64,000 nt of DNA, from the NCBI GenBank assembly GCA_030837345.1, contig JAUPKQ010000146.1, positions 1 through 64,000 on the forward strand. The letters are read 5' to 3'. This document shows, in pieces, positions 52,237-64,000 of this stretch. Position 1 is the first letter of the stretch. Every line of letters starts with the position of its first letter. A program made the translations under genes and the position numbers. The stretch is from Actinomycetota bacterium (GTDB lineage Bacteria; Actinomycetota; Actinomycetes; Actinomycetales; Kineosporiaceae). The notes beneath the pieces are model-generated. The model saw nothing but the letters and a program-made list of their open reading frames with translations. It was not told where the DNA came from and ran no database searches.

Positions 52237-53856
52237 TCAACGACCGGAGCGGACCTGCTTGACGAGCCACGCCGTCCAGGCCTTCTCGAACTCCTGCGAG
52301 CTGATCCCCAAGACGGCCTGGGCCGGTCCGCTCCGGCCGGAGGCGATCCAGGTGTAGTAGGCGATGGCCTGGGCGGAACCCCACCGTTCCGCGATGTAGC
52401 GGAACACCATGGCCGACATGGCGTAGTTGAGGCCGATGGTCTCCTCCCGGGAGGAGTAGAAGTCCCGAGGGCGCCCCGGGGGCAGTCCGGTGCGGAACTG
52501 TCCCCGCTGGGCGAGGTACCGCAGGTCGAGCAGACGCTGGTTCCTCGCGAGAGGAACCTCTCGCTCCTCGCTCCAGGCGGCGAACCCCTCTTCCGCCCAC
52601 ACGGGATACGCCTGGTCGGCCGAGGTGCGCACCGCTTGGACGGCGATGGTCTGGGCGTGCGTGAACTCGTGCCGCAACGTCAACGCCAGATCGGCGTTCC
52701 CCCGTGTCTTCGCCATGTCGATCACGATCCGGGCTCCCCCGAGCCTCAGCGGGACCTCCCTGGTGGCTGCGGTCTCGGCCGCGTAGAGCGAGGCGCAGAA
52801 CCCGCTGCTCGCAGCGACGGTGGTACCGCCGTACCAGGACTGTTTCGCCGTCTTGCTGCGGGTGAGGAAGACGACGAAACCCTGTGGTCCCGGTCGCGCG
52901 CCCCACAGACGCCGCACGGTGACAGCGGCCTTCTCCGCGATCTTGTCGACCTTCGTCACCGTCGGCATCGGGACGTCCGGACCCGCGGCGACGGTGACGA
53001 GGCCGCCTCCTGCCACCTTCAGCGCGATGCCGTCGATCGGGCCGGGCGACCGTGACCGCGCCAGTCCCCGTCCGGGAACGGACTTCGCGAGCATCACCGC
53101 GCCGCCGCGACGCACCCACGTCTCCTCGTACCCGAGGGCCACGGGTTCGACGTCCGCCTTCCCCAGCCGGTGCACCAGGGCGACGCCGAACTCCCTGCCG
53201 CCCGCGACGGCGGAACTCGCCGTCCCGCCGTCCTCGACGTCCCGGTACACGGGCTCGGCGAGGGAGAACTGGACGAGGTTGCGGAAGGTCTGCCGCTGCC
53301 GGGCGACCAGGGCGGGGTCCGCGGAGTCCACCGAGGCCAGAAACGCCTTCTCGTTCCTGCCCCTCAGCGCCGATGTCCGGGCCTCCAGCGCGATCCGGAC
53401 GTCCTGGTCGAACCGTCGCTCGGGGGTGAGGTCCTCCTCGTCCTCCCCGCCGGTCCCTCCCTTCCCACCAGGGACTTCCCGGACGGTCCCGGGGTGTCCC
53501 GTGCCCGTGAGTGCCCTCCCCGGACCGCTGAACGAGATGAGGAACACCATCCCGGCCGTCCCCATCGCGGCGATCAGCACGAGGCACAGGACGACGGCGG
53601 CGGCGACTCCCGCACCTGGCCGGCGGGGCGGAACGCGGTACGGGAGGACTCCGTGGCCCGCGGTCCCGTACCCGAACGGCGGGTACTGCCCGGGTGGGTA
53701 TTGTCCGGTCGGGTACTGCCCGGGTGGGTACTGCCCAGACAGGTACGGCGCAGATGGATACGAACCGGGCGGGGGCGGAGGGTGAACGCCCTGCGGGAAC
53801 GGTCCGGGCGGTGGGGTTCCGAGGGCTTCCGGCGTGGAGCGACAGCCCTCGGTCAT
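52237..53856 (-). CDS. Membrane-anchored peptidase-MA-like metalloprotease (paralogue 1)
   Basis: A 539-residue protein. A Pro/Gly/Tyr-rich cytoplasmic N-terminus (about 1-75) with YPPGQ repeats is followed by one TM (about 83-108). The outer region resembles a long stalk domain, and the peptidase MA-like gluzincin domain has HEFTH at 396-400 and a third ligand Glu in WAEEGFAAW (422/423). It ends AWLVKQVRSGR, identical in the last nine residues to the next gene's product. Substrate unknown. It is a tandem paralogue of the next gene. Confidence 0.82.
   Translation of the reverse strand: MTEGCRSTPEALGTPPPGPFPQGVHPPPPPGSYPSAPYLSGQYPPGQYPTGQYPPGQYPPFGYGTAGHGVLPYRVPPRRPGAGVAAAVVLCLVLIAAMGTAGMVFLISFSGPGRALTGTGHPGTVREVPGGKGGTGGEDEEDLTPERRFDQDVRIALEARTSALRGRNEKAFLASVDSADPALVARQRQTFRNLVQFSLAEPVYRDVEDGGTASSAVAGGREFGVALVHRLGKADVEPVALGYEETWVRRGGAVMLAKSVPGRGLARSRSPGPIDGIALKVAGGGLVTVAAGPDVPMPTVTKVDKIAEKAAVTVRRLWGARPGPQGFVVFLTRSKTAKQSWYGGTTVAASSGFCASLYAAETAATREVPLRLGGARIVIDMAKTRGNADLALTLRHEFTHAQTIAVQAVRTSADQAYPVWAEEGFAAWSEEREVPLARNQRLLDLRYLAQRGQFRTGLPPGRPRDFYSSREETIGLNYAMSAMVFRYIAERWGSAQAIAYYTWIASGRSGPAQAVLGISSQEFEKAWTAWLVKQVRSGR
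53681..53755. repeat. 15-bp tandem repeat encoding YPPGQ-type repeats
   Basis: Five imperfect 15-bp units (consensus GGGTACTGCCCGGGT on the plus strand) in the N-terminal coding part of the first peptidase-MA-like gene. They encode a Pro/Gly/Tyr cytoplasmic tail. Confidence 0.8.
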
Positions 53857-54026: not shown

Positions 54027-55625
54027 TCACCGCCCAGACCGGACCTGTTTGACGAGCCAGGTGGTCCATGCGGACTCGAAGCTGGCCGAGCTCACCCCGA
54101 GCACAGCCTGGGCCGAGTTCTTCTGCCCGGAGGCGATGCGAACGTAGAGATCGACCGCCTTCTCGGCGCCCCAGCGGTCCGCCACATACCGGAAGACCAT
54201 CGCCGACTTGGCGTAGTGGAGGCCGATGAATTCCTTGTTCGAGGAGTAGAACGCGATACGGCTGGAGGGGGGCATACCCGTCGTGAAGTACCCCTTGCGT
54301 TGCAGGTACCGCAGCGTGTTCAGACGAGGACTCCGCGACAGGGGGACGTCCTTCTCCTCGCTCCAGGAGGCGAAACCCTCCTCTGCCCAGGTGGGGTAGG
54401 GCTCGTCCAGCGAGAGCGACTGGGAGACGGCCCGGATCCGCACCGACAGGGCGTGGGTGAACTCGTGACGCAGGGTCGCCGACAGATCCTTGTCGTCCCT
54501 CACCTGGCTCAGGTCGATCACGACCCTGGAACCACCCAGACGGAGGCTCTCGTCCTTCAGGGTGCCGTCGTCGGCCACGGCGGCGGGGGGTGTGGCGCCG
54601 GGGTCACGACCGGCGGCGACCAGGCGTTTGTCCACGGCGTACTGGGAGACGCAGAACCCGGAGCTCCCGATGATTTCGCTCCCGCCGAACCATGCCGTTT
54701 TCACCGCCGTTCTCCTGGAGAGGAAGACGGCGAAGCCCTTCGGCCCGGGACGGGATCCCCACAGCTTGAGGACCGGTAGGGCCGCCTTCTCGGCGAGCCG
54801 GTCCACCTTGGCCACCGTCGCGGCAGTGACGTCAGGGCCTGCCGCGACGGTCACACGACCACCGCCGACGACCTTCAAAGCCGTCACATTGAGGGGATTG
54901 TCCCCCTTGCTGGAATGCCCGACGTTCTCCTTCACCACGGAGTCGACCATGGTGATGCCCGTCCCCCGGCGGACCCAGGTCTCCTCGTACCCGAGGGCGA
55001 CCGGCTCGACGTCGGCCTCACCCAGGCGGTGAACCAGGGCGACACGGTACGACCTGGCTCCCGTGACGGTCCGGCTGGCGATCCCGAAGCCGAGATCGAG
55101 CCGGTAGGCGGGATCGGTCACGGGGTACTGGACGAGGTTGCGGAAGATCAGCCGCTGCCGGGCGAGCACGGTGCGGGCGGTGGGGTCGACGGCGGAGAGG
55201 AAAGCCTTCTCGTTCTTGGTCCGCAGGGCCGTCGTCCGGGCCCCGAGAGCGGTGAGGACATCCTTGTCGAGCTGTTCCTCCGGGGTGATCTCGTCGGCCT
55301 GGTTGTTGAGTTTCCTCAGGTACAGCAGGCCGCCCGCGCCCGCTCCCGCGGCGAGGACCAGCAGCCCGACGACACCGATCACCAGCGCGATCGCGAGACC
55401 CCGGTGCCGGGACGGCGGGCGGGGGTACCCCGGCGCACCGTTCGGCAGGGGTGGGTACGGGTACTGCCCGCCTTGCGGGGGCGGGTACGGGTACTGCCCG
55501 CCCTGCGGGGGCGGGTACGGGTACTGCCCACCCTGCGGCGGTGCGTACGGATACTGCCCGTTCGGCGGGGGGACGGGGTGAGCGTCGAAGACCCCGGGGC
55601 GAGGACCAGGCCCACCCTCACTCAT
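54027..55625 (-). CDS. Membrane-anchored peptidase-MA-like metalloprotease (paralogue 2)
   Basis: A 532-residue paralogue of the preceding gene with the same architecture: a GGQYPYPPPQ-repeat tail (about 20-65), one TM (about 77-103), a stalk with LDKDVLTALGARTTALRTKNEKAFL, and HEFTH at 387-391 with WAEEGFASW. The tail repeats differ from those of paralogue 1 although the catalytic parts are close. ATG with SD GAGAGGAG. An in-frame extension upstream is noise. Both genes read on the same strand with a 170-nt gap. Confidence 0.82.
   Translation of the reverse strand: MSEGGPGPRPGVFDAHPVPPPNGQYPYAPPQGGQYPYPPPQGGQYPYPPPQGGQYPYPPLPNGAPGYPRPPSRHRGLAIALVIGVVGLLVLAAGAGAGGLLYLRKLNNQADEITPEEQLDKDVLTALGARTTALRTKNEKAFLSAVDPTARTVLARQRLIFRNLVQYPVTDPAYRLDLGFGIASRTVTGARSYRVALVHRLGEADVEPVALGYEETWVRRGTGITMVDSVVKENVGHSSKGDNPLNVTALKVVGGGRVTVAAGPDVTAATVAKVDRLAEKAALPVLKLWGSRPGPKGFAVFLSRRTAVKTAWFGGSEIIGSSGFCVSQYAVDKRLVAAGRDPGATPPAAVADDGTLKDESLRLGGSRVVIDLSQVRDDKDLSATLRHEFTHALSVRIRAVSQSLSLDEPYPTWAEEGFASWSEEKDVPLSRSPRLNTLRYLQRKGYFTTGMPPSSRIAFYSSNKEFIGLHYAKSAMVFRYVADRWGAEKAVDLYVRIASGQKNSAQAVLGVSSASFESAWTTWLVKQVRSGR
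55451..55570. repeat. 30-bp tandem repeat encoding GGQYPYPPPQ
   Basis: Four units of 30 bp (55451-55480, 55481-55510, 55511-55540, 55541-55570), the last more diverged. They are in frame and encode a Pro/Tyr/Gly-rich tail. Not a CRISPR: no spacers. Confidence 0.9.
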
Positions 55626-55891
55626 GACGCTCCTCTCGCGGAGATCACCGAAGGACCCCCGAACGAACGACGAATGTAGTCGACACCCAGGGGTGCCACT
55701 CCTCCCTTCGCACGACGGCGGGATCACCCACCTGGACGAGGCTGCGCAGTCCAGCCACCCTCGACGCACCGCCGGGGCCGGAGGTTCCCGGGCGTCCCCG
55801 AGGGTTGAAAGATGCGTGTTCACGTGCGGTGATAGCGTCAAGAACCCCGCTCCGGAACAGACCCGGACGATTCGACCCCGAAGGAGGGCCC

Positions 55892-56788
55892 GTGCTGACG
55901 TCGTCGGCCACAGCACCTCACCGACCGCGCCGTTCGGTCCTCTACATGCCCGCGGCGAACGACCGGGCCCTCGCGAAGGCCAAGACCCTTCCCGCGGACG
56001 CCGTCATCTTCGATCTTGAGGACGCCGTCGCCCCGGACGCGAAGGAACTCGCCCGGGCGAAGGCCTGCGCCGCCGTCAAGGACCCGGGCTACGGCCGCCG
56101 GGAGCTGACCATCCGGATCAACGGGACGGGAACCCGCTGGCACGACGACGATCTCCTGGCCGCCGCCGCCGCGGGACCTGACGCGATCGTCGTCCCGAAG
56201 GTCTCCTCGGCCGCCGAGGTCCACCGTCTGGAGGCCGCACTGGAGGCCGCGGGCGCCCCCGGGCACACCTCGCTCTGGGGGATGCTCGAAACCCCCGCCG
56301 CGATGCTGCACGCCGAGGAGATCGCCGGGGCGTCCGAACGCCTCACCGTGCTGGTGATGGGCACGAACGACCTGGCCAAGGAGCTCCAGGCGGAGCACGT
56401 CCCGGGGCGTGCGCCTCTGCTCACCGGCCTGCGGCTCTGTCTGCTCGCCGCGCGGGCGACGGGGACGGTCATCCTCGACGGCGTCTACAACGACGTGTCG
56501 GACGCCGAGGGGTTCGAGGCCGAGTGCCGTCAGGGACGCCAGCTCGGGTTCGACGGTAAGACCCTGATCCACCCCCGTCAGATCGAACCCTGCAACCGGA
56601 TCTTCGCCCCGGACGAGGCCGAGGTCGAGGAGGCACGGACCGTGCTCCGGGTCTGGGAGGAGGCCTTGGCCGCCGGACGCGGGGTCGCCACCGTCGGCGG
56701 ACGGATGATCGAGAACCTGCACGTCGAGAACGCGCACCGGATCCTGGCCACCGACGCGGCGATCCGGGCGATGGCCGAAGCCGGGTAG
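55892..56788 (+). CDS. CitE-type HpcH/HpaI aldolase/lyase
   Basis: A 298-residue TIM-barrel lyase. RSVLYMPAANDRALAKA, VIFDLEDAVAPDAKELA, MLETPAAMLHAEEIA and KTLIHPRQIEPCN are the family signatures, with the Mg-binding Glu and Asp in those motifs. Members cleave CoA thioesters such as malyl- or citramalyl-CoA; no citrate lyase subunits are nearby, so it is a stand-alone lyase. GTG start with SD AAGGAGG. Confidence 0.93.
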   Translation: MLTSSATAPHRPRRSVLYMPAANDRALAKAKTLPADAVIFDLEDAVAPDAKELARAKACAAVKDPGYGRRELTIRINGTGTRWHDDDLLAAAAAGPDAIVVPKVSSAAEVHRLEAALEAAGAPGHTSLWGMLETPAAMLHAEEIAGASERLTVLVMGTNDLAKELQAEHVPGRAPLLTGLRLCLLAARATGTVILDGVYNDVSDAEGFEAECRQGRQLGFDGKTLIHPRQIEPCNRIFAPDEAEVEEARTVLRVWEEALAAGRGVATVGGRMIENLHVENAHRILATDAAIRAMAEAG

Positions 56789-57500: not shown

Positions 57501-58040
57501 GTGCGCCCAGATCAGCCCGCCGTACCGGCCCGGCCCGCCCGCACCTCCCGGCGGAGGAGCGCCGCGACGGCGGTCGGTGCGGTCGCGTTCGTCGCGGCGA
57601 TGACGGTCGGCGCCGCACCGCCCGCCGCGGCGGCGCCGCCTCCGATCCCGATCGTGGACTGTGTCCTGGTGCAGCCCAACGGCTCCTTCCGCGCGGTGTT
57701 CGGGTACTACTACGGCGGGCCCTCGTCCGTGACGATCCCGCACGGTCCGTACAACTACGCCTGGCCGTCGGACCTGACCGGTTCGCTGCCGACGACCTTC
57801 GAACCCGGCCCCCACCAAGGGGCGTTCGCGACCCCGCTCCAGCCGAAGAACGCCAAGGTCACCTGGGTGATCGCCGGATGGGGATCCACGGCGAGCTGGA
57901 GGACGACCCGGTGTGGCCCGGACGTCGTCCTCCCCACCGAGGGCAACGGGATGGGCCCGATCCTCGTCCTGGGACTCAGCATGATCCTGTCGTTCCTACC
58001 CGTCGCCCTGCGCAACCGGTGGCGCAAGCGGAGGGCATGA
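57501..58040 (+). CDS. Secreted protein with sorting-signal-like C-terminus
   Basis: A 179-residue protein, GTG start with SD GGAGG. Signal peptide at about 16-45 (RRR, hydrophobic AVGAVAFVAAM, Ala-rich end). A small extracellular domain (about 50-140) contains two Cys (54, 138) and Tyr/Pro-rich stretches. The C-terminus has LPTEG (144-148), a hydrophobic helix (153-170) and a basic tail RNRWRKRR (171-178), the layout of sortase or exosortase substrates. It is first in an operon with an exosortase-like gene, making it the candidate substrate. No known domain. Confidence 0.8.
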   Translation: MRPDQPAVPARPARTSRRRSAATAVGAVAFVAAMTVGAAPPAAAAPPPIPIVDCVLVQPNGSFRAVFGYYYGGPSSVTIPHGPYNYAWPSDLTGSLPTTFEPGPHQGAFATPLQPKNAKVTWVIAGWGSTASWRTTRCGPDVVLPTEGNGMGPILVLGLSMILSFLPVALRNRWRKRRA

Positions 58041-58813
58041 TGCGACGCGTACTCGCCGTCGGGGCCCACCCCGACGACATCGAACTCGGCTGCGCCGGGA
58101 CGATCGCCGCCCACCGGGCGGCCGGTGACCTCGTCACCATGCTGGTGCTCACCGGCGGCCAGAACGGCCCCGGCCCCACCTCCGAACGCTGGGCGGAGGC
58201 CCAGCGTGCCGCCCTGCTCCTCGACGTGGAACTGATCTGGAGCGGACTGATCGACTGCACCCTCGTTCCCGACTCAGGCCTGATCGCCACGATCGAGCAC
58301 GCGATCACCGCCTGCGCGGCCGATGTCATCTACGTCCACGCCCCGGACGACTCGCACCAGGACCACCGGGCCGCGGCCGCGGCCACCTTGTCCGCGGGCC
58401 GGCTCGGGAGCCGCATCCTGCACTACCGCAGTCCGTCCACCGTCCAGTTCAACCCCTCGGTGTTCGTCGACGTCTCCGAGCACCTCGGCACCAAGCTCGC
58501 CGCGCTCGACTGCCACCGGACCCAGGTCGATGGGTCGTCGATGGTCGACTCCGAGGTGGTCGTCGTCTCGGCGAGGTACTTCGGTGCCCTCGCCCGGATC
58601 CAGTACGCCGAGGCCTTCGCCCCGGCCCGCTTCGTCTGGGACCTCTCCCCGCAGGCACGGGAGACTGAGCGGTCCCGCTCGGAGCCCTCCCGCGCCGGCC
58701 AGCCCCGTGCCGACCAGACCCGTAGCGACCAGACCCGTGACGACCAGGCCCGTCGGGAGCGCGATCTGCCCCAGCAACGTCACCAGCCGCCGAACGAGGT
58801 GCGGACGTGGTGA
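58037..58813 (+). CDS. PIG-L family (LmbE-like) deacetylase
   Basis: A 258-residue zinc deacetylase. VGAHPDDIELGCAGT holds the AHPDD metal motif, and APDDSHQDHRAAA the HxxH. Members deacetylate GlcNAc-containing substrates. The C-terminal 45 residues are polar repeats (PRADQTRSDQTRDDQARR). ATG overlaps the upstream stop. Next to a GT2 and an exosortase-like gene it probably acts on a GlcNAc-containing glycan or precursor. Confidence 0.9.
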   Translation: MMRRVLAVGAHPDDIELGCAGTIAAHRAAGDLVTMLVLTGGQNGPGPTSERWAEAQRAALLLDVELIWSGLIDCTLVPDSGLIATIEHAITACAADVIYVHAPDDSHQDHRAAAAATLSAGRLGSRILHYRSPSTVQFNPSVFVDVSEHLGTKLAALDCHRTQVDGSSMVDSEVVVVSARYFGALARIQYAEAFAPARFVWDLSPQARETERSRSEPSRAGQPRADQTRSDQTRDDQARRERDLPQQRHQPPNEVRTW

Positions 58814-60306
58814 CAGACCCACCGGGGCATCCCGCACCGGCGTCGGACCGTCCCGAGCACCACCGGTGGGCCCTGCTGACGTACGCGGTGGTCCTCGGCC
58901 TCGGGTTCGCCTTCGCCGGCGTCGACCGGACCCTCTGGATGATCTCCGTCATCCTGACTCTGGTCTTCTTCGCCTACTTCATCCGGCATCTCTCCTTCGC
59001 CATCTCCGCCGCCCGGTGGGCCGAAGGCGATCTTGAGGCCCCCTGCGTCGGCATCGAGTCGTACACGCCCCAGCTCACCGTCCTCGTCGCGTGCAAGAAC
59101 GAGGAACTCGTCGTCGACGGGATGGTCACCGCCCTCCTCGGCCTCGACTACCCGGACGACGCGATGACCCTCCTCGTCGTCGACGACGGGTCGGACGACG
59201 GCACGGGGGCCCGGCTCGACGCCTGGGCGGCGGCAGACCGGCGGCTCCGCGTGCTCCACCGGCTCCCGGGCGCCGGTGGGGGCAAGTCGGGTGCCCTCAA
59301 CGACGCCCTCGAATTCGCCCTGGCCGACATCGACGCCGAGATCGCCGTGATCTTCGACGCCGACCACGAACCCGATCGGGGAGCCCTGCGCAGACTCGTC
59401 CGGCACTTCCGGGATCCGAGTGTCGGAGCGGTGATGGGCCGGTGCGTGATCCGCAACGGCATCGAGTCGTCGCTCGCCTCCACGATCTTCATCGACTACC
59501 TCTCGGGATACCTCGTCAACGAGTACGGACGCCAGGCCCTGTTCGAGCTGCCGGCCTACGGCGGGGCGAACTGCGCGGTGAGCATCGAGGTCCTGCGCGC
59601 CCTCGGCGGGTGGAACCCGCACACGGTGACCGAGGACACCGACCTGACGCTGCGGGTGCTCCTGATGGGTAAACGGGTGCGGTTCGACCCGACCGCCGTC
59701 GACTTCGAGGAGGCGGTGAGCTCGACGAAGCGGTTCTGGAAGCAGCGTCACCGCTGGGCCCGAGGACATCAGAAGTGCCTGCGCGACTACTGGCGGCCCG
59801 CCATGCGCAGCCCGTACCTCACGGTCGCGGACAAGATCGAAACGATGATGTTCCTCTGGATCTACCACATCCCGGTGATGTGCGGGATCGGTCTGACCAT
59901 CACCGTCCTGCGCGTGTTCGGCGTCGGCGGCGAGGGAGCGTCCGCCCCCATCTCGATGGCGGCGCTGATGTTCGCCGGGCCGTTCGCCGAACTGACCGTC
60001 GGGTTGCTCCTCGGTCGTGTCGAGCGAAGGGCCGCGTGGATGCTCGCCGCGTTCGTCCCCTCGTTCGGCCTGTCGATCCTCACCATCACCGTCGCCTATC
60101 TCGACGGGATGTGGGGCCGGGAGTACTCGTGGGTGAAGACCGCCCGCACCGGCACGCCGGGCGTCGGCCCGGCATCGGACGACGGTCAGCAGGCTCTCGG
60201 TGTCCTCCCCGGCACCGGCCCCGGGCCGGCGTCGGCGGCTGCGTCGGGGACAGGTCCGGGGACGGGGACGGCATCGTTCGCCCGCCGGGACAGCAGCCTG
60301 AGATGA
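58807..60306 (+). CDS. BcsA/HAS-like family 2 glycosyltransferase
   Basis: A 499-residue processive GT2. Two N-terminal TM helices are followed by the catalytic domain: VVDDGSDDG, IFDADHEPD, EDTDLTLR and QRHRWARG (the D, DxD, TED and QxxRW positions), then C-terminal TM helices (about 355-430). Such enzymes polymerise and export beta-linked glycans such as cellulose, hyaluronan or poly-GlcNAc. The product is not known. It overlaps the deacetylase and the next gene. Confidence 0.93.
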   Translation: MVTDPPGHPAPASDRPEHHRWALLTYAVVLGLGFAFAGVDRTLWMISVILTLVFFAYFIRHLSFAISAARWAEGDLEAPCVGIESYTPQLTVLVACKNEELVVDGMVTALLGLDYPDDAMTLLVVDDGSDDGTGARLDAWAAADRRLRVLHRLPGAGGGKSGALNDALEFALADIDAEIAVIFDADHEPDRGALRRLVRHFRDPSVGAVMGRCVIRNGIESSLASTIFIDYLSGYLVNEYGRQALFELPAYGGANCAVSIEVLRALGGWNPHTVTEDTDLTLRVLLMGKRVRFDPTAVDFEEAVSSTKRFWKQRHRWARGHQKCLRDYWRPAMRSPYLTVADKIETMMFLWIYHIPVMCGIGLTITVLRVFGVGGEGASAPISMAALMFAGPFAELTVGLLLGRVERRAAWMLAAFVPSFGLSILTITVAYLDGMWGREYSWVKTARTGTPGVGPASDDGQQALGVLPGTGPGPASAAASGTGPGTGTASFARRDSSLR

Positions 60307-62381
60307 CCGCGACCCTCGTCTCCGGCGCGGCCGGCCCCCACGGCCCCCAGACCACCGGGGTAGCCCTCATCCGGAAACCCGGCGCCACACGCGCCGTCAC
60401 GATCCGGCGACGCTGGGTGATGCTGGAGATCCTCGGGGTGGCCGTCTGGTGCGTCGCCGGGTTCAACCTGTTGATCGATCCTGCCCGGCGGGTGGAGATC
60501 TCGATCTCGTCGGCCATCCTCCAGGCGCTCGGTCAGGGCCACGTCTCCACCGTCCTCGGCGACGCCTTCCTCATCTTCGGCCCCGACGGCCCGCCGATCG
60601 TCGCCAACCTGACCGCGTCGTGCTCCGCTCTCGGCAACATGCTCGCCCTCTCCTCCCTCGCCTTCGCCTGCATGCGCCAGCAACCGCAGGCCTCCGTCGG
60701 ACTGCTGCTCGCCGCGGGGTGGGCAGTGATCGCCAATCAGATCCGCCTGGTCCTCTCCTTGCTCGCCGGGGTCCGCTTCGGGGTGCACTCACTCGTGCTG
60801 TTCCACGACTGGGTCGGGGCCGTCATCAACTTCTGCTTCGTACTGATCGGACTCCTCGTCATGGTCGCCTTCACCATGCAACAACCGGAACGGGCCGAGC
60901 AGGACCGTTCCGGTCGGCACACCGCCGGGCGTCCCTACGCCTGGGCACGGCCCGGCCTCGGGTACCGGGTCGAGCTGGCGGATCTCCCTCCCACCCCCAA
61001 GATCCGCGTCGCCGCTCTGATCCACCGCTGGCTGCTGCCCCGGCAGGTCTCACGCTGGCTGGGGGCACGGCGTGAACGCCGCCGGATCGACTACCGTCTC
61101 GGCCACCTCGACCCGGCCGACCGGGCGGCCGCCGTCGTCGAACTGACCGGCCACGGACTCGGCGCGCACACGGCGACCCTCGTCGCCGTCGCGTCGTTCG
61201 AGAACGACGGACGCGTGCTCAACGCCCTCGCCGACGCCGTCGCGGCCCGCCAGTGGGAACCGATCTCCGATCCCCGCATCGGAGCCCTGCGGCTGTGGGC
61301 CCGTGCCTGGCTCATGCGCCGTCCGGTCAACCACGAGTGCCACCACAGTACGGCCCGGGGGGAGGACCGGCTGATCGCGGTGACGGGAGCGGGAGGCCCG
61401 GCCGGGGTCGCCGTGATCCGCGCCCTTCTCGCCACGGGACGCCGGGTCCTCGCCGTCGACGCCGACCCCGAGGCCGTGGGACTGCGGCTCGCCTGCGAGG
61501 CGGGGATCCTTCCCCGGGCGGACGCCGACACCTTCGGGACCGCCTTGCTGGAACTCGTCGCGGAACGCAAGCCGTCCGCCCTGATCTGCACCGTCGCCGA
61601 GGAGTACCAAGCGATGGCGGAACAGGTCGACGCCCTGGCCGACCTCGGCTGCCGGACCTGGTTGCCGCCCCTGGAGGCCGCGGAGACCTGCCTGGACAAG
61701 AAGGCGTTCGCGCAGGCGCTGAAGAAGGCAGGGGTCCCGCACCCGGCGACGGTGACGACACGCGCCGCCGCCGGCCGGATCCCCGGTCCCTGGATCGTCA
61801 AGCCCCTCCGGGGCCGCGGCAGCCGAGACGTGATGACCGCCGACACCCCGAAGGAGCTGACCCAGGCGTTCGCCGCCGTCCCCGACCCCGTCGCGCAGAC
61901 GCGGGTGGCCGGGCGCGAGTTCACGGCCGACGTCCTGGTCGACCGATCGGGCAGCGTGCTGACGTGCGTACCCCGCTGGCGTGACGACACCCGTGGCGGG
62001 ATCTCCGTCCGGGGCACCACGTTCGACTCGCACGCCGTGACCAAGGTCGTCATGGACGCCGTCGCCGCGGTCGGGCTCACCGGGCCGGCGAACGTCCAGG
62101 GATTCGTCGAGAACCCCGAACCCCTCGACGACGACCCCGAGGCCGAGGTACCCGTCACGATCATCGAGATCAACCCCCGTTTCTCCGGTGGGCTGCCGCT
62201 CACCCTCGCCGCCGGTGCCGACGTGGTGAACACCTACCTGGCCGGCATCCTCGACCCGACGGCCGCCCTCCCCCGGCTGACCTTCGCCCCGGACGTCAAG
62301 ATGGCCCGTCATTTCGCCGAGGTGTATTACGGCCCCGACGGAACGGCGGTCATCGACCCGTTGGGGGTGAGATGCGGTTGA
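60303..62381 (+). CDS. Exosortase-like/ATP-grasp fusion protein
   Basis: A 692-residue fusion. Residues 40-192 form about five TM helices with a putative catalytic Cys107 (TASCSAL), Arg148 (ANQIR) and His168 (FHDWVG), the exosortase/archaeosortase triad. A 200-348 helical linker follows. Residues 356-680 are a CarB/PylC-like unit: pre-ATP-grasp (AVTGAGGPAGVAVIRAL) and ATP-grasp with VKPLRGRGSRDV (Lys500) and EINPRFSGG (Glu622, Asn624). ATP-grasp enzymes ligate carboxylates to amines. ATG overlaps the GT2 stop (ATGA). The pairing of functions is unusual. Confidence 0.85.
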   Translation: MTATLVSGAAGPHGPQTTGVALIRKPGATRAVTIRRRWVMLEILGVAVWCVAGFNLLIDPARRVEISISSAILQALGQGHVSTVLGDAFLIFGPDGPPIVANLTASCSALGNMLALSSLAFACMRQQPQASVGLLLAAGWAVIANQIRLVLSLLAGVRFGVHSLVLFHDWVGAVINFCFVLIGLLVMVAFTMQQPERAEQDRSGRHTAGRPYAWARPGLGYRVELADLPPTPKIRVAALIHRWLLPRQVSRWLGARRERRRIDYRLGHLDPADRAAAVVELTGHGLGAHTATLVAVASFENDGRVLNALADAVAARQWEPISDPRIGALRLWARAWLMRRPVNHECHHSTARGEDRLIAVTGAGGPAGVAVIRALLATGRRVLAVDADPEAVGLRLACEAGILPRADADTFGTALLELVAERKPSALICTVAEEYQAMAEQVDALADLGCRTWLPPLEAAETCLDKKAFAQALKKAGVPHPATVTTRAAAGRIPGPWIVKPLRGRGSRDVMTADTPKELTQAFAAVPDPVAQTRVAGREFTADVLVDRSGSVLTCVPRWRDDTRGGISVRGTTFDSHAVTKVVMDAVAAVGLTGPANVQGFVENPEPLDDDPEAEVPVTIIEINPRFSGGLPLTLAAGADVVNTYLAGILDPTAALPRLTFAPDVKMARHFAEVYYGPDGTAVIDPLGVRCG

Positions 62382-63589
62382 GGTCCCCGGATCAGCTGGC
62401 TCCACGACAGACCCGACCGGAGGGGACGGACGCCGTCCGCCGCCGGATTCTCGTACCGTTCGGCACCCGGCCGGAGGTCATCAAGCTCGCTCCCGTCGTG
62501 CGGGCCCTGCGTTCGGCGGGCCACGACGTCACGACCGTCGACACGGGTCAGCACACGTCGGCGGTCATGGCAGCCGACGTGCAACGTGACCTCGGACTGC
62601 GGCCCGACGTGCGGCTCCGGCTCCCGGACGGCCCCGGCCGCACCGGGCGACTGCTGTCGGGAGCCGTCCGGACCCTCGCCGAGCACCCCGTCGACGTCGT
62701 CCTCACCCTGGGAGACACCCATACGGTCCCCGCCTACGCTCTCGCGTCGCGGACGGCGGGGATCCCCTTCGCCCATCTGGAGGCAGGCCTGCGCAGTTTC
62801 AACCTGCGCAGCGTCGAGGAGGTCAACCGGCGGGTGGCCGGTGCCGCCGCCCAGCTGCACTTCGCGCCGACGGAGCGCGCGGCCTCCTTCCTCGCCCACG
62901 AGGGCATCCCTCCCGAGCGGGTGTTCGTGGTCGGGAACCCGGTCATCGACGCCTTGTGCGAACGCGGCGTGGCCCGCGTGGCCCCGTCGGAGCGGGTCGG
63001 CGTCCTCATCACCGCGCACCGGGCGAGCAACGTCGACGACCCGGCACGCCTGGCCCGGCTGATCGGTCTCGTCGCCGCGCTCGCCCGCGAGGTCGGGCCC
63101 GTCCTCTTCCCCGTGCATCCGCGCACCGCGAAGCGGCTCCGGGAGCACGGTCTCTCGGACCGGCTGGCGGACCTGCCGGGGGTGACTCTCCGCGACCCGC
63201 TGCCCTACCCGGACCTCCTCACGGCCCTGGCGTCGGCACGAGTCGTCGTCACCGACTCCGGCGGGCTGCAGGAGGAAGCCGCCTACTTCGGCGTCCCCGT
63301 CGTCGTGCTGCGGCGTTCGACACCTCGCTGGGAGGGCGTGGAACAGAACGCGGCGGTCCTGACCGGCATCACGAGCGACGACGAGGCGAGCACGGCGGCG
63401 GAGGCCGCACGACGTCTGGCCGAGCCCGTCGAGCTGGAGCGGATCGCCGGGCTCCCCTGCCCGTACGGAGACGGGACGACGGGACCCCAGGTCGCCGCGA
63501 TCCTCGCGGACCCGGCCACGACCCCGCTGCTCGAACTGACGGAGCCGGACTTCACCGACGGCACCCGGCCCTGGGAGGTCGTCCGTTGA
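62372..63589 (+). CDS. wecB: UDP-GlcNAc 2-epimerase (WecB-type)
   Basis: A 405-residue non-hydrolysing epimerase giving UDP-ManNAc. FGTRPEVIKLAPVVRAL, AHLEAGLRS, SVEEVNRRV, ITAHRASN and VTDSGGLQEEAAYFGVP are all present. ATG overlaps the upstream stop by 10 nt. UDP-ManNAc can feed a ManNAc-containing polymer, consistent with the operon's GT2 and deacetylase. Confidence 0.93.
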   Translation: MRLRSPDQLAPRQTRPEGTDAVRRRILVPFGTRPEVIKLAPVVRALRSAGHDVTTVDTGQHTSAVMAADVQRDLGLRPDVRLRLPDGPGRTGRLLSGAVRTLAEHPVDVVLTLGDTHTVPAYALASRTAGIPFAHLEAGLRSFNLRSVEEVNRRVAGAAAQLHFAPTERAASFLAHEGIPPERVFVVGNPVIDALCERGVARVAPSERVGVLITAHRASNVDDPARLARLIGLVAALAREVGPVLFPVHPRTAKRLREHGLSDRLADLPGVTLRDPLPYPDLLTALASARVVVTDSGGLQEEAAYFGVPVVVLRRSTPRWEGVEQNAAVLTGITSDDEASTAAEAARRLAEPVELERIAGLPCPYGDGTTGPQVAAILADPATTPLLELTEPDFTDGTRPWEVVR

Positions 63590-64000
63590 GCGGGCGATCA
63601 TTCCCGGGGTGGACGGGACCGCCACCGGCAGGAGTCGTCGTCGACCTCGACGACACGATCTATCCGCAGGCCACGTATCTGAGAGGAGCGGTGTCCGAGG
63701 TCGGCCGGGCCGCTCAGGCCGCGGGGCTGGACGGCGAGGCCGTCTGCCGCGCCCTCCGGTCTGAGATCCACGCAGGCTCCGACCGGAACGGCACGATCGA
63801 CCGGGCTCTGGCCCGCTGCGCCGTGCCGCCCGACCAGGCGGCGAAGATCACTCCCGTGCTGGTCAGAGCGTTTGTCGGGTACCGGCCCGAACGGCTGCCT
63901 CTCTACGAGGACGCCGGGGCAGCCCTCGCCGCCCTGCGGACCCGGTACCCGCTGGCCTGCCTGACCGACGGCAACCCGGTGATCCAACGGGCGAAACTCG
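63586..64000 (+). CDS. HAD-superfamily hydrolase (partial, runs off the window)
   Basis: At least 138 residues. A TTG start overlaps the epimerase stop, with SD GGGAGGT. GVVVDLDDTIYPQATYL is HAD motif I (DLDDT) and LTDGNPVIQRAKL covers motif II. The helical cap has LYEDAGAALAALR before it. Possibly a sugar-phosphate phosphatase for the glycan pathway. The remainder is beyond 64000. Confidence 0.85.
   Translation, partial: MSGRSFPGWTGPPPAGVVVDLDDTIYPQATYLRGAVSEVGRAAQAAGLDGEAVCRALRSEIHAGSDRNGTIDRALARCAVPPDQAAKITPVLVRAFVGYRPERLPLYEDAGAALAALRTRYPLACLTDGNPVIQRAKL

Follow-up and report, generated by a model that had tools for sequence, protein, structure and literature searches.

Gene content and layout of the operon

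The window (the whole 64,000-nucleotide stretch of DNA analysed here) ends in a run of six plus-strand genes, which encode, in order, a candidate sorted substrate, a PIG-L de-N-acetylase, a GT2 glycosyltransferase, an exosortase–helical–ATP-grasp fusion, a WecB-type epimerase and a HAD-family hydrolase. With gene starts computed by a simple purpose-made caller, neighbouring genes overlap at every one of the five junctions, by 4, 7, 4, 10 and 4 nt in gene order. Six co-directional, overlapping genes had been claimed in the original prediction, and both the families and the five overlaps hold, but the sixth gene runs on beyond the window edge: it begins at a TTG overlapping the WecB stop codon, and its 3' part lies further along the contig, which ends at 65781. 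The features are:

57501..58040, + strand: candidate sorted substrate (GTG start preceded by GGAGGAG; member of a 29-member family)
57906..58037, + strand: C-terminal sorting-type tail of the GNG type (tail profile search of its own genome)
58037..58813, + strand: PIG-L (CE14-type) de-N-acetylase, cytoplasmic (PF02585, 77 bits)
58807..60306, + strand: membrane GT2 of the PgaC / hyaluronan-synthase type (PF13641, 73 bits; DxD, TEDTD and QxxRW motifs)
60303..62381, + strand: exosortase–HEAT-like–ATP-grasp fusion, whole gene (single reading frame)
60303..60935, + strand: exosortase-superfamily domain with four predicted membrane helices and a Cys-Asn-Arg-His core (TIGR04178 above cut-off; model)
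61008..61320, + strand: helical HEAT-like linker domain (model helices 236-339; sub-threshold HEAT_2 matches in homologues)
61338..62381, + strand: ATP-grasp ligase domain, PRK12767 / PylC / L-amino-acid-ligase-like (ATP-grasp_3 PF02655, 50 bits; Foldseek)
62372..63589, + strand: WecB-type non-hydrolysing UDP-GlcNAc 2-epimerase (TIGR00236, 254.6 bits, cut-off 210.2; Epimerase_2 PF02350, 276 bits)
63586..64350 (window ends at 64000), + strand: HAD-family hydrolase, probable phosphatase (PF00702, ~74 bits [73.7])

Judged by their conserved motifs, all operon enzymes look active. The metal motifs of PIG-L, AHPDD and HQDH, are intact, and across 42 homologues their conservation is 95% or more; GT2 homologues retain DADH, TEDTD and QxxRW, and ATP-grasp homologues retain the lysine and the glycine-rich loop. 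A Foldseek search with the ATP-grasp model matched 2pn1, PylC (4ffl) and an L-amino acid ligase (3vot), and the modelled domain resembles carboxylate-amine ligases. Trimming of a secreted polymer by PIG-L was considered and set aside, because this protein has no signal peptide. A second ATP-grasp, 39% identical, is also present in the window's genome (L043:2-2846), where a DegT aminotransferase and a GDP-mannose-dehydratase-like gene flank it in an amino-sugar-type cluster.

The fusion protein and the tailed candidate substrate

The fusion is a genuine single frame, in which an exosortase-type membrane domain is followed by a HEAT-like helical domain and an ATP-grasp domain. The model of its 692 residues (mean pLDDT 86.5) has four membrane helices between residues 28 and 191, further helices at 236-339 and the ATP-grasp fold from 357. 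Because the number of membrane helices is even and RKPGATRAVTIRRR stands ahead of the first one, the ATP-grasp domain would face the cytoplasm. The membrane domain matches, as had been proposed, the exosortase superfamily, scoring 28.5-30.4 bits on the curated exosortase/archaeosortase signature TIGR04178 (cut-off 23), on which its homologues score 47 and 34 bits. Its Cys, Asn, Arg and His, together with one Glu, are invariant in all 48 copies from homologous loci. Pfam EpsH (PF09721) has no match anywhere in the window's genome, and the exosortase profile found no match among solved structures. Other genomes of the window's family possess an EpsH-type exosortase of ~524 aa (PF09721, 75 bits) with different neighbours (L050-L052).

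The cut-off of no lettered NCBIfam exosortase family is reached by the window domain: the window exosortase scores 28.7 of 145 for XrtS and 14.8 of 150 for XrtR and is unlisted for XrtP, on which a homologue scores 23.8 of 200, while the window GT2 scores 102.7 of 520. Assignment of the domain to XrtP, XrtR or XrtS was rejected on these cut-offs.

The substrate carries a signal peptide, a small disulphide-type beta ectodomain with two invariant cysteines, and a C-terminal tail; in its model the ectodomain has a pLDDT of ~97 and the transmembrane helix spans residues 151-178. As the original prediction had it for a secreted protein, the tail is tripartite, running from LPTEGNGMGP through a hydrophobic helix to RNRWRKRR, and the profile search found this GNG tail to be unique in the window's genome (E 7.8e-18, against 0.17 for the runner-up). 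Since none of the matches in a fold search was reliable (best E 0.015), neither a known fold nor a lectin function is claimed for the substrate.

Nearly all homologous loci keep a tail-bearing secreted protein, which lies in or beside ~44 of the 50 (38 by an automatic rule and six by eye, namely L106, L119, L122, L139, L141 and L142). The GNG type, [LM]-P-x-[EDGA]-G-N-G-x-G-P followed by a transmembrane helix and RR, occurs in 24 loci (in L106 only in raw open reading frames), and most others have a PVG type, P-x-G-x-x-G-G with the same continuation. Applied to the other genes of the operon loci, the automatic rule picked 5 of 362 (~1%), two of which are further PVG tails near the operon. The ectodomains differ between clades: the GNG clade has the small two-cysteine beta domain, and those elsewhere include choice-of-anchor P or fibronectin III (fn3) domains, with the tail retained. 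Tailed proteins may also be dispersed, as in Aciditerrimonas, with up to eight PVG tail matches, and in genome G334, with two tailed substrate homologues unlinked to the operon on other contigs. Genome G310 (78% complete), without an exosortase, has a substrate-family homologue with collagen-like repeats and no tail. Sorting is well supported, and the data support recognition of the substrate tail by its co-encoded exosortase. Neither of the outcomes named in the original prediction as refuting it was seen: the Cys/Arg/His residues persist in homologous loci, nearly all of which retain a tailed protein, and the match of the membrane domain is to the exosortase superfamily.

Distribution, divergence and sister operons

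The gene set is common to ~50 actinobacterial loci, which span Micromonosporaceae, Geodermatophilaceae, Catenulispora, Pseudonocardia, Acidimicrobiia and metagenome-assembled genomes (MAGs), so the expected co-occurrence of the six families across actinobacteria holds. The search ran an alignment of three GT2 proteins against 84,980 species genomes and gave 48 actinobacterial loci at 48-77% identity, with nearly all others at 28% or below. Since GT2 was the bait, the counts of the other genes among the 50 distinct loci are conditional on it (GT2 50, exosortase 48, ATP-grasp 47, PIG-L 46, WecB 43, HAD 41), and several absences are contig ends (for instance L133 for the exosortase), some MAG contigs being short or broken. 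WecB and HAD are absent from L128, L129 and L135, and PIG-L is absent nearby in L121, L134, L137 and L142.

An exosortase profile, run without the GT2 bait in 395 genomes of the class, gave three strong matches (>180 bits), each in a genome that has the full operon and a tail-bearing substrate, and four weak ones, of which both inspected (G352 and G436) lie in XrtP/R-type operons. A class-level search added two further genomes with the whole operon, placed between rho and rpmE-prfA. A scan of genome contigs with the whole fusion protein found no match, and the fusion query over 148 same-order genomes did not find the exosortase domain in relatives, matches outside the window's own copy being ATP-grasp regions only. 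Because ~50 independent loci repeat the set and the tail rule picks so few other genes (5/362), the gene set is not a chance assembly.

The exosortase tree, which pools its 24 non-GNG rows, five of them with no identified tail, under a single label, shows one switch of tail type, with GNG forming one branch (support 99/98). The triple fusion is restricted to the GNG clade; in most Geodermatophilaceae it is re-split into exosortase-HEAT and ATP-grasp, and in other clades the three parts are two or three adjacent genes. Since many relatives encode its domains separately, the fusion is derived, a Rosetta-stone link. The predicted fusion is real in the window but not general, and treating it as universal or as the hallmark of the system was rejected, given that it is lineage-specific, derived and re-split. 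GT2 and PIG-L are naturally fused as well, in a 710-aa protein of Aciditerrimonas ferrireducens (L124:9022-11154) adjoining split exosortase genes. Such fusions of operon parts suggest joint action of their products.

Operons of the XrtP, XrtR and XrtS types (NF012139, NF012138, NF033767, NF053846) resemble that of the window in combining, in actinobacteria, a small single-module exosortase with a GT2 and a WecB-type epimerase, whereas those inspected (L060-L068, L220 and L221) are without PIG-L, ATP-grasp, HAD and the GNG/PVG-tailed substrate. As these sister operons exist and NCBIfam has an entry for an XrtP-associated glycosyltransferase, exosortase with GT2, with or without WecB, is a known theme; what is new here is PIG-L, HEAT-ATP-grasp, HAD and a GNG/PVG-tailed substrate together with the exosortase. 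The original prediction had not recognised this exact combination, and we found no description of it in NCBIfam, Pfam or the open literature searched. A conserved secreted protein of ~270 aa, a possible substrate or partner, lies between GT2 and WecB in L060-L068, and the one copy scanned had no NCBIfam match.

Compared with PEP-CTERM/EpsH (XrtA), the signal peptide, the C-terminal motif-helix-basic tail, the Cys/Arg/His membrane protease and the polysaccharide genes are shared. The window system differs in its Gram-positive host, its usually single dedicated substrate, the ATP-grasp and PIG-L in the operon, the unmatched PF09721, and the absence of the PEP motif from the substrate tails, which carry [LM]P-x-[EDGA]-G-N-G-x-G-P or P-x-G-x-x-G-G instead. 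Homologous PIG-L and ATP-grasp genes (the latter 50% identical to that of the window in G016) also stand beside a membrane GT2 in actinobacterial PIG-L / ATP-grasp / PHP / GT2 operons (L042, L044-L049), which, unlike the window operon, lack an exosortase or tailed substrate and whose PIG-L often has a response-regulator receiver domain. Such operons are widespread in the order and form a separate, apparently unnamed glycan module.

Proposed linking-sugar anchoring and its alternatives

As far as we know and found, no acceptor of bacterial exosortase substrates has been identified. In Porphyromonas and Tannerella, an amide bond joins the C-terminus of type IX secretion (T9SS) cargo to a linking sugar that bears an N-seryl or N-glycyl group; Wbp enzymes, a deacetylase and an amino-acid transferase produce this sugar (PMC7468200). 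The authors of that work also speculated that amino-acid-modified sugars are employed by exosortase loci (PMC7468200). According to other studies, archaeosortase was proposed to move C-termini onto the amine of an ethanolamine lipid (PMC7157517), and exosortases generally co-occur with exopolysaccharide genes (PMC1569441).

The best model for the operon is linking-sugar anchoring, convergent with the Bacteroidetes Wbp/Vim–PorU system and loosely GPI-like. We give an even chance to the operon being a self-contained protein-sorting and surface-attachment cassette of this kind, with an operon-made acceptor. The proposed logic of epimerase, N-deacetylase, amino-acid addition and transpeptidase is shared with Wbp/Vim–PorU, and the same activity set would be reached through other families, namely a WecB epimerase, a PIG-L deacetylase, an ATP-grasp ligase, a glycosyltransferase and a transpeptidase. 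The sortase is unrelated, PIG-L (CE14) stands in place of CE4 and ATP-grasp in place of an N-acyltransferase, and T9SS and an outer membrane are features of the Bacteroidetes case only; as profile scans of the operon proteins named PIG-L and ATP-grasp and no CE4 or VimA-type acyltransferase, the likeness is functional only. Eukaryotic GPI anchoring shares a C-terminal hydrophobic signal, a Cys transamidase and PIG-L-type deacetylation of a GlcNAc lipid, again by analogy only, since its transamidase is non-homologous to exosortase and its acceptor is ethanolamine.

In the proposed mechanism, P-x-x-G-N-G-x-G-P, the transmembrane helix and the basic tail form the signal recognised by the co-encoded exosortase, whose Cys, from what is known of the family, would attack near the GNG motif at the outer face, releasing the tail and forming a thioester. 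Cytoplasmic enzymes would meanwhile build the acceptor: WecB might supply a UDP-ManNAc-type sugar, PIG-L would take off the N-acetyl group, and the ATP-grasp domain may couple the amine thus exposed to a carboxylate, in the simplest case that of an amino acid. The membrane GT2 could load the sugar onto a lipid or polymer and carry it across the membrane, the HAD protein could trim phosphate, and the exosortase would then move the new C-terminus of the substrate onto the free amine of the linking sugar, so that the exosortase-ATP-grasp fusion would link the making of the acceptor within the cell to transpeptidation at its outer face. We infer conjugation of the substrate to the operon's own aminoacyl-sugar. 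A hitherto undescribed bacterial counterpart of GPI or linking-sugar anchoring, in which the exosortase joins secreted proteins to an aminoacylated amino-sugar from PIG-L and the fused ATP-grasp, and the operon encodes enzyme, acceptor pathway and substrate together, is put forward more tentatively, at slightly under an even chance.

Several observations count against linking-sugar anchoring. The PIG-L/ATP-grasp/GT2 operons without exosortase imply an independent role for these genes, some loci lack WecB and HAD or a nearby PIG-L, the ATP-grasp could instead amidate or carboxylate something else, and the processive-synthase motifs of GT2 are more in keeping with a polymer than with a lone linking sugar. 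The foremost alternative, unlikely in our view and yet the likeliest of the rivals, is that the substrate is sorted and conjugated to a pre-existing acceptor, such as a phosphatidylethanolamine-like lipid or a lipid II-like amine, and that the protein later associates with a co-regulated exopolysaccharide produced by the glycan genes, as proposed for PEP-CTERM/EpsH. The general co-occurrence of exosortases with exopolysaccharide genes (PMC1569441), the ethanolamine lipid proposed for archaeosortase (PMC7157517), the PgaC/hyaluronan-synthase likeness of GT2 and the PIG-L/ATP-grasp/GT2 module standing alone are consistent with it, whereas PIG-L and ATP-grasp, both enzymes of cytoplasmic type, fit precursor modification rather than extracellular polymer trimming, and the fusion partner of the ATP-grasp is the exosortase, not GT2.

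It is improbable that the exosortase-like domain only cleaves the tail, with the protein released by hydrolysis and the glycan genes separate: no biochemistry of small actinobacterial exosortases was found in the open literature, but the invariant Cys/Arg/His core matches the transpeptidase mechanism proposed for the superfamily, and the fusion and co-conservation with a ligase and a deacetylase would require another reason. Slightly less probable still is that no sorting occurs, the membrane domain serving instead in the export or assembly of a glycan and the tailed protein being no more than a lectin or synthase-complex scaffold that crosses the membrane once, for although the small ectodomain, the one transmembrane helix, the co-encoded synthase and the one dedicated substrate in the window's genome would suit this, tail motif and position persist between clades with unrelated ectodomains, the tail matches of Aciditerrimonas are dispersed and the exosortase catalytic residues are invariant.

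The operon brings together the exosortase, candidate enzymes for making the acceptor, one of which is its fusion partner, and a small dedicated substrate of ~18 kDa. The operon occurs in the cultured genera Actinoplanes, Micromonospora and Geodermatophilus, which makes the acceptor question accessible to mass spectrometry. If linking-sugar anchoring is true, covalent C-terminal anchoring of this kind reaches from Bacteroidetes to Gram-positive bacteria.

Finally, we also identified on the minus strand of the window (52237-53856 and 54027-55916) two tandem paralogous membrane-anchored proteins, whose N-termini are rich in proline and which have a metallopeptidase-like motif of the HExxH type (HEFTHA).
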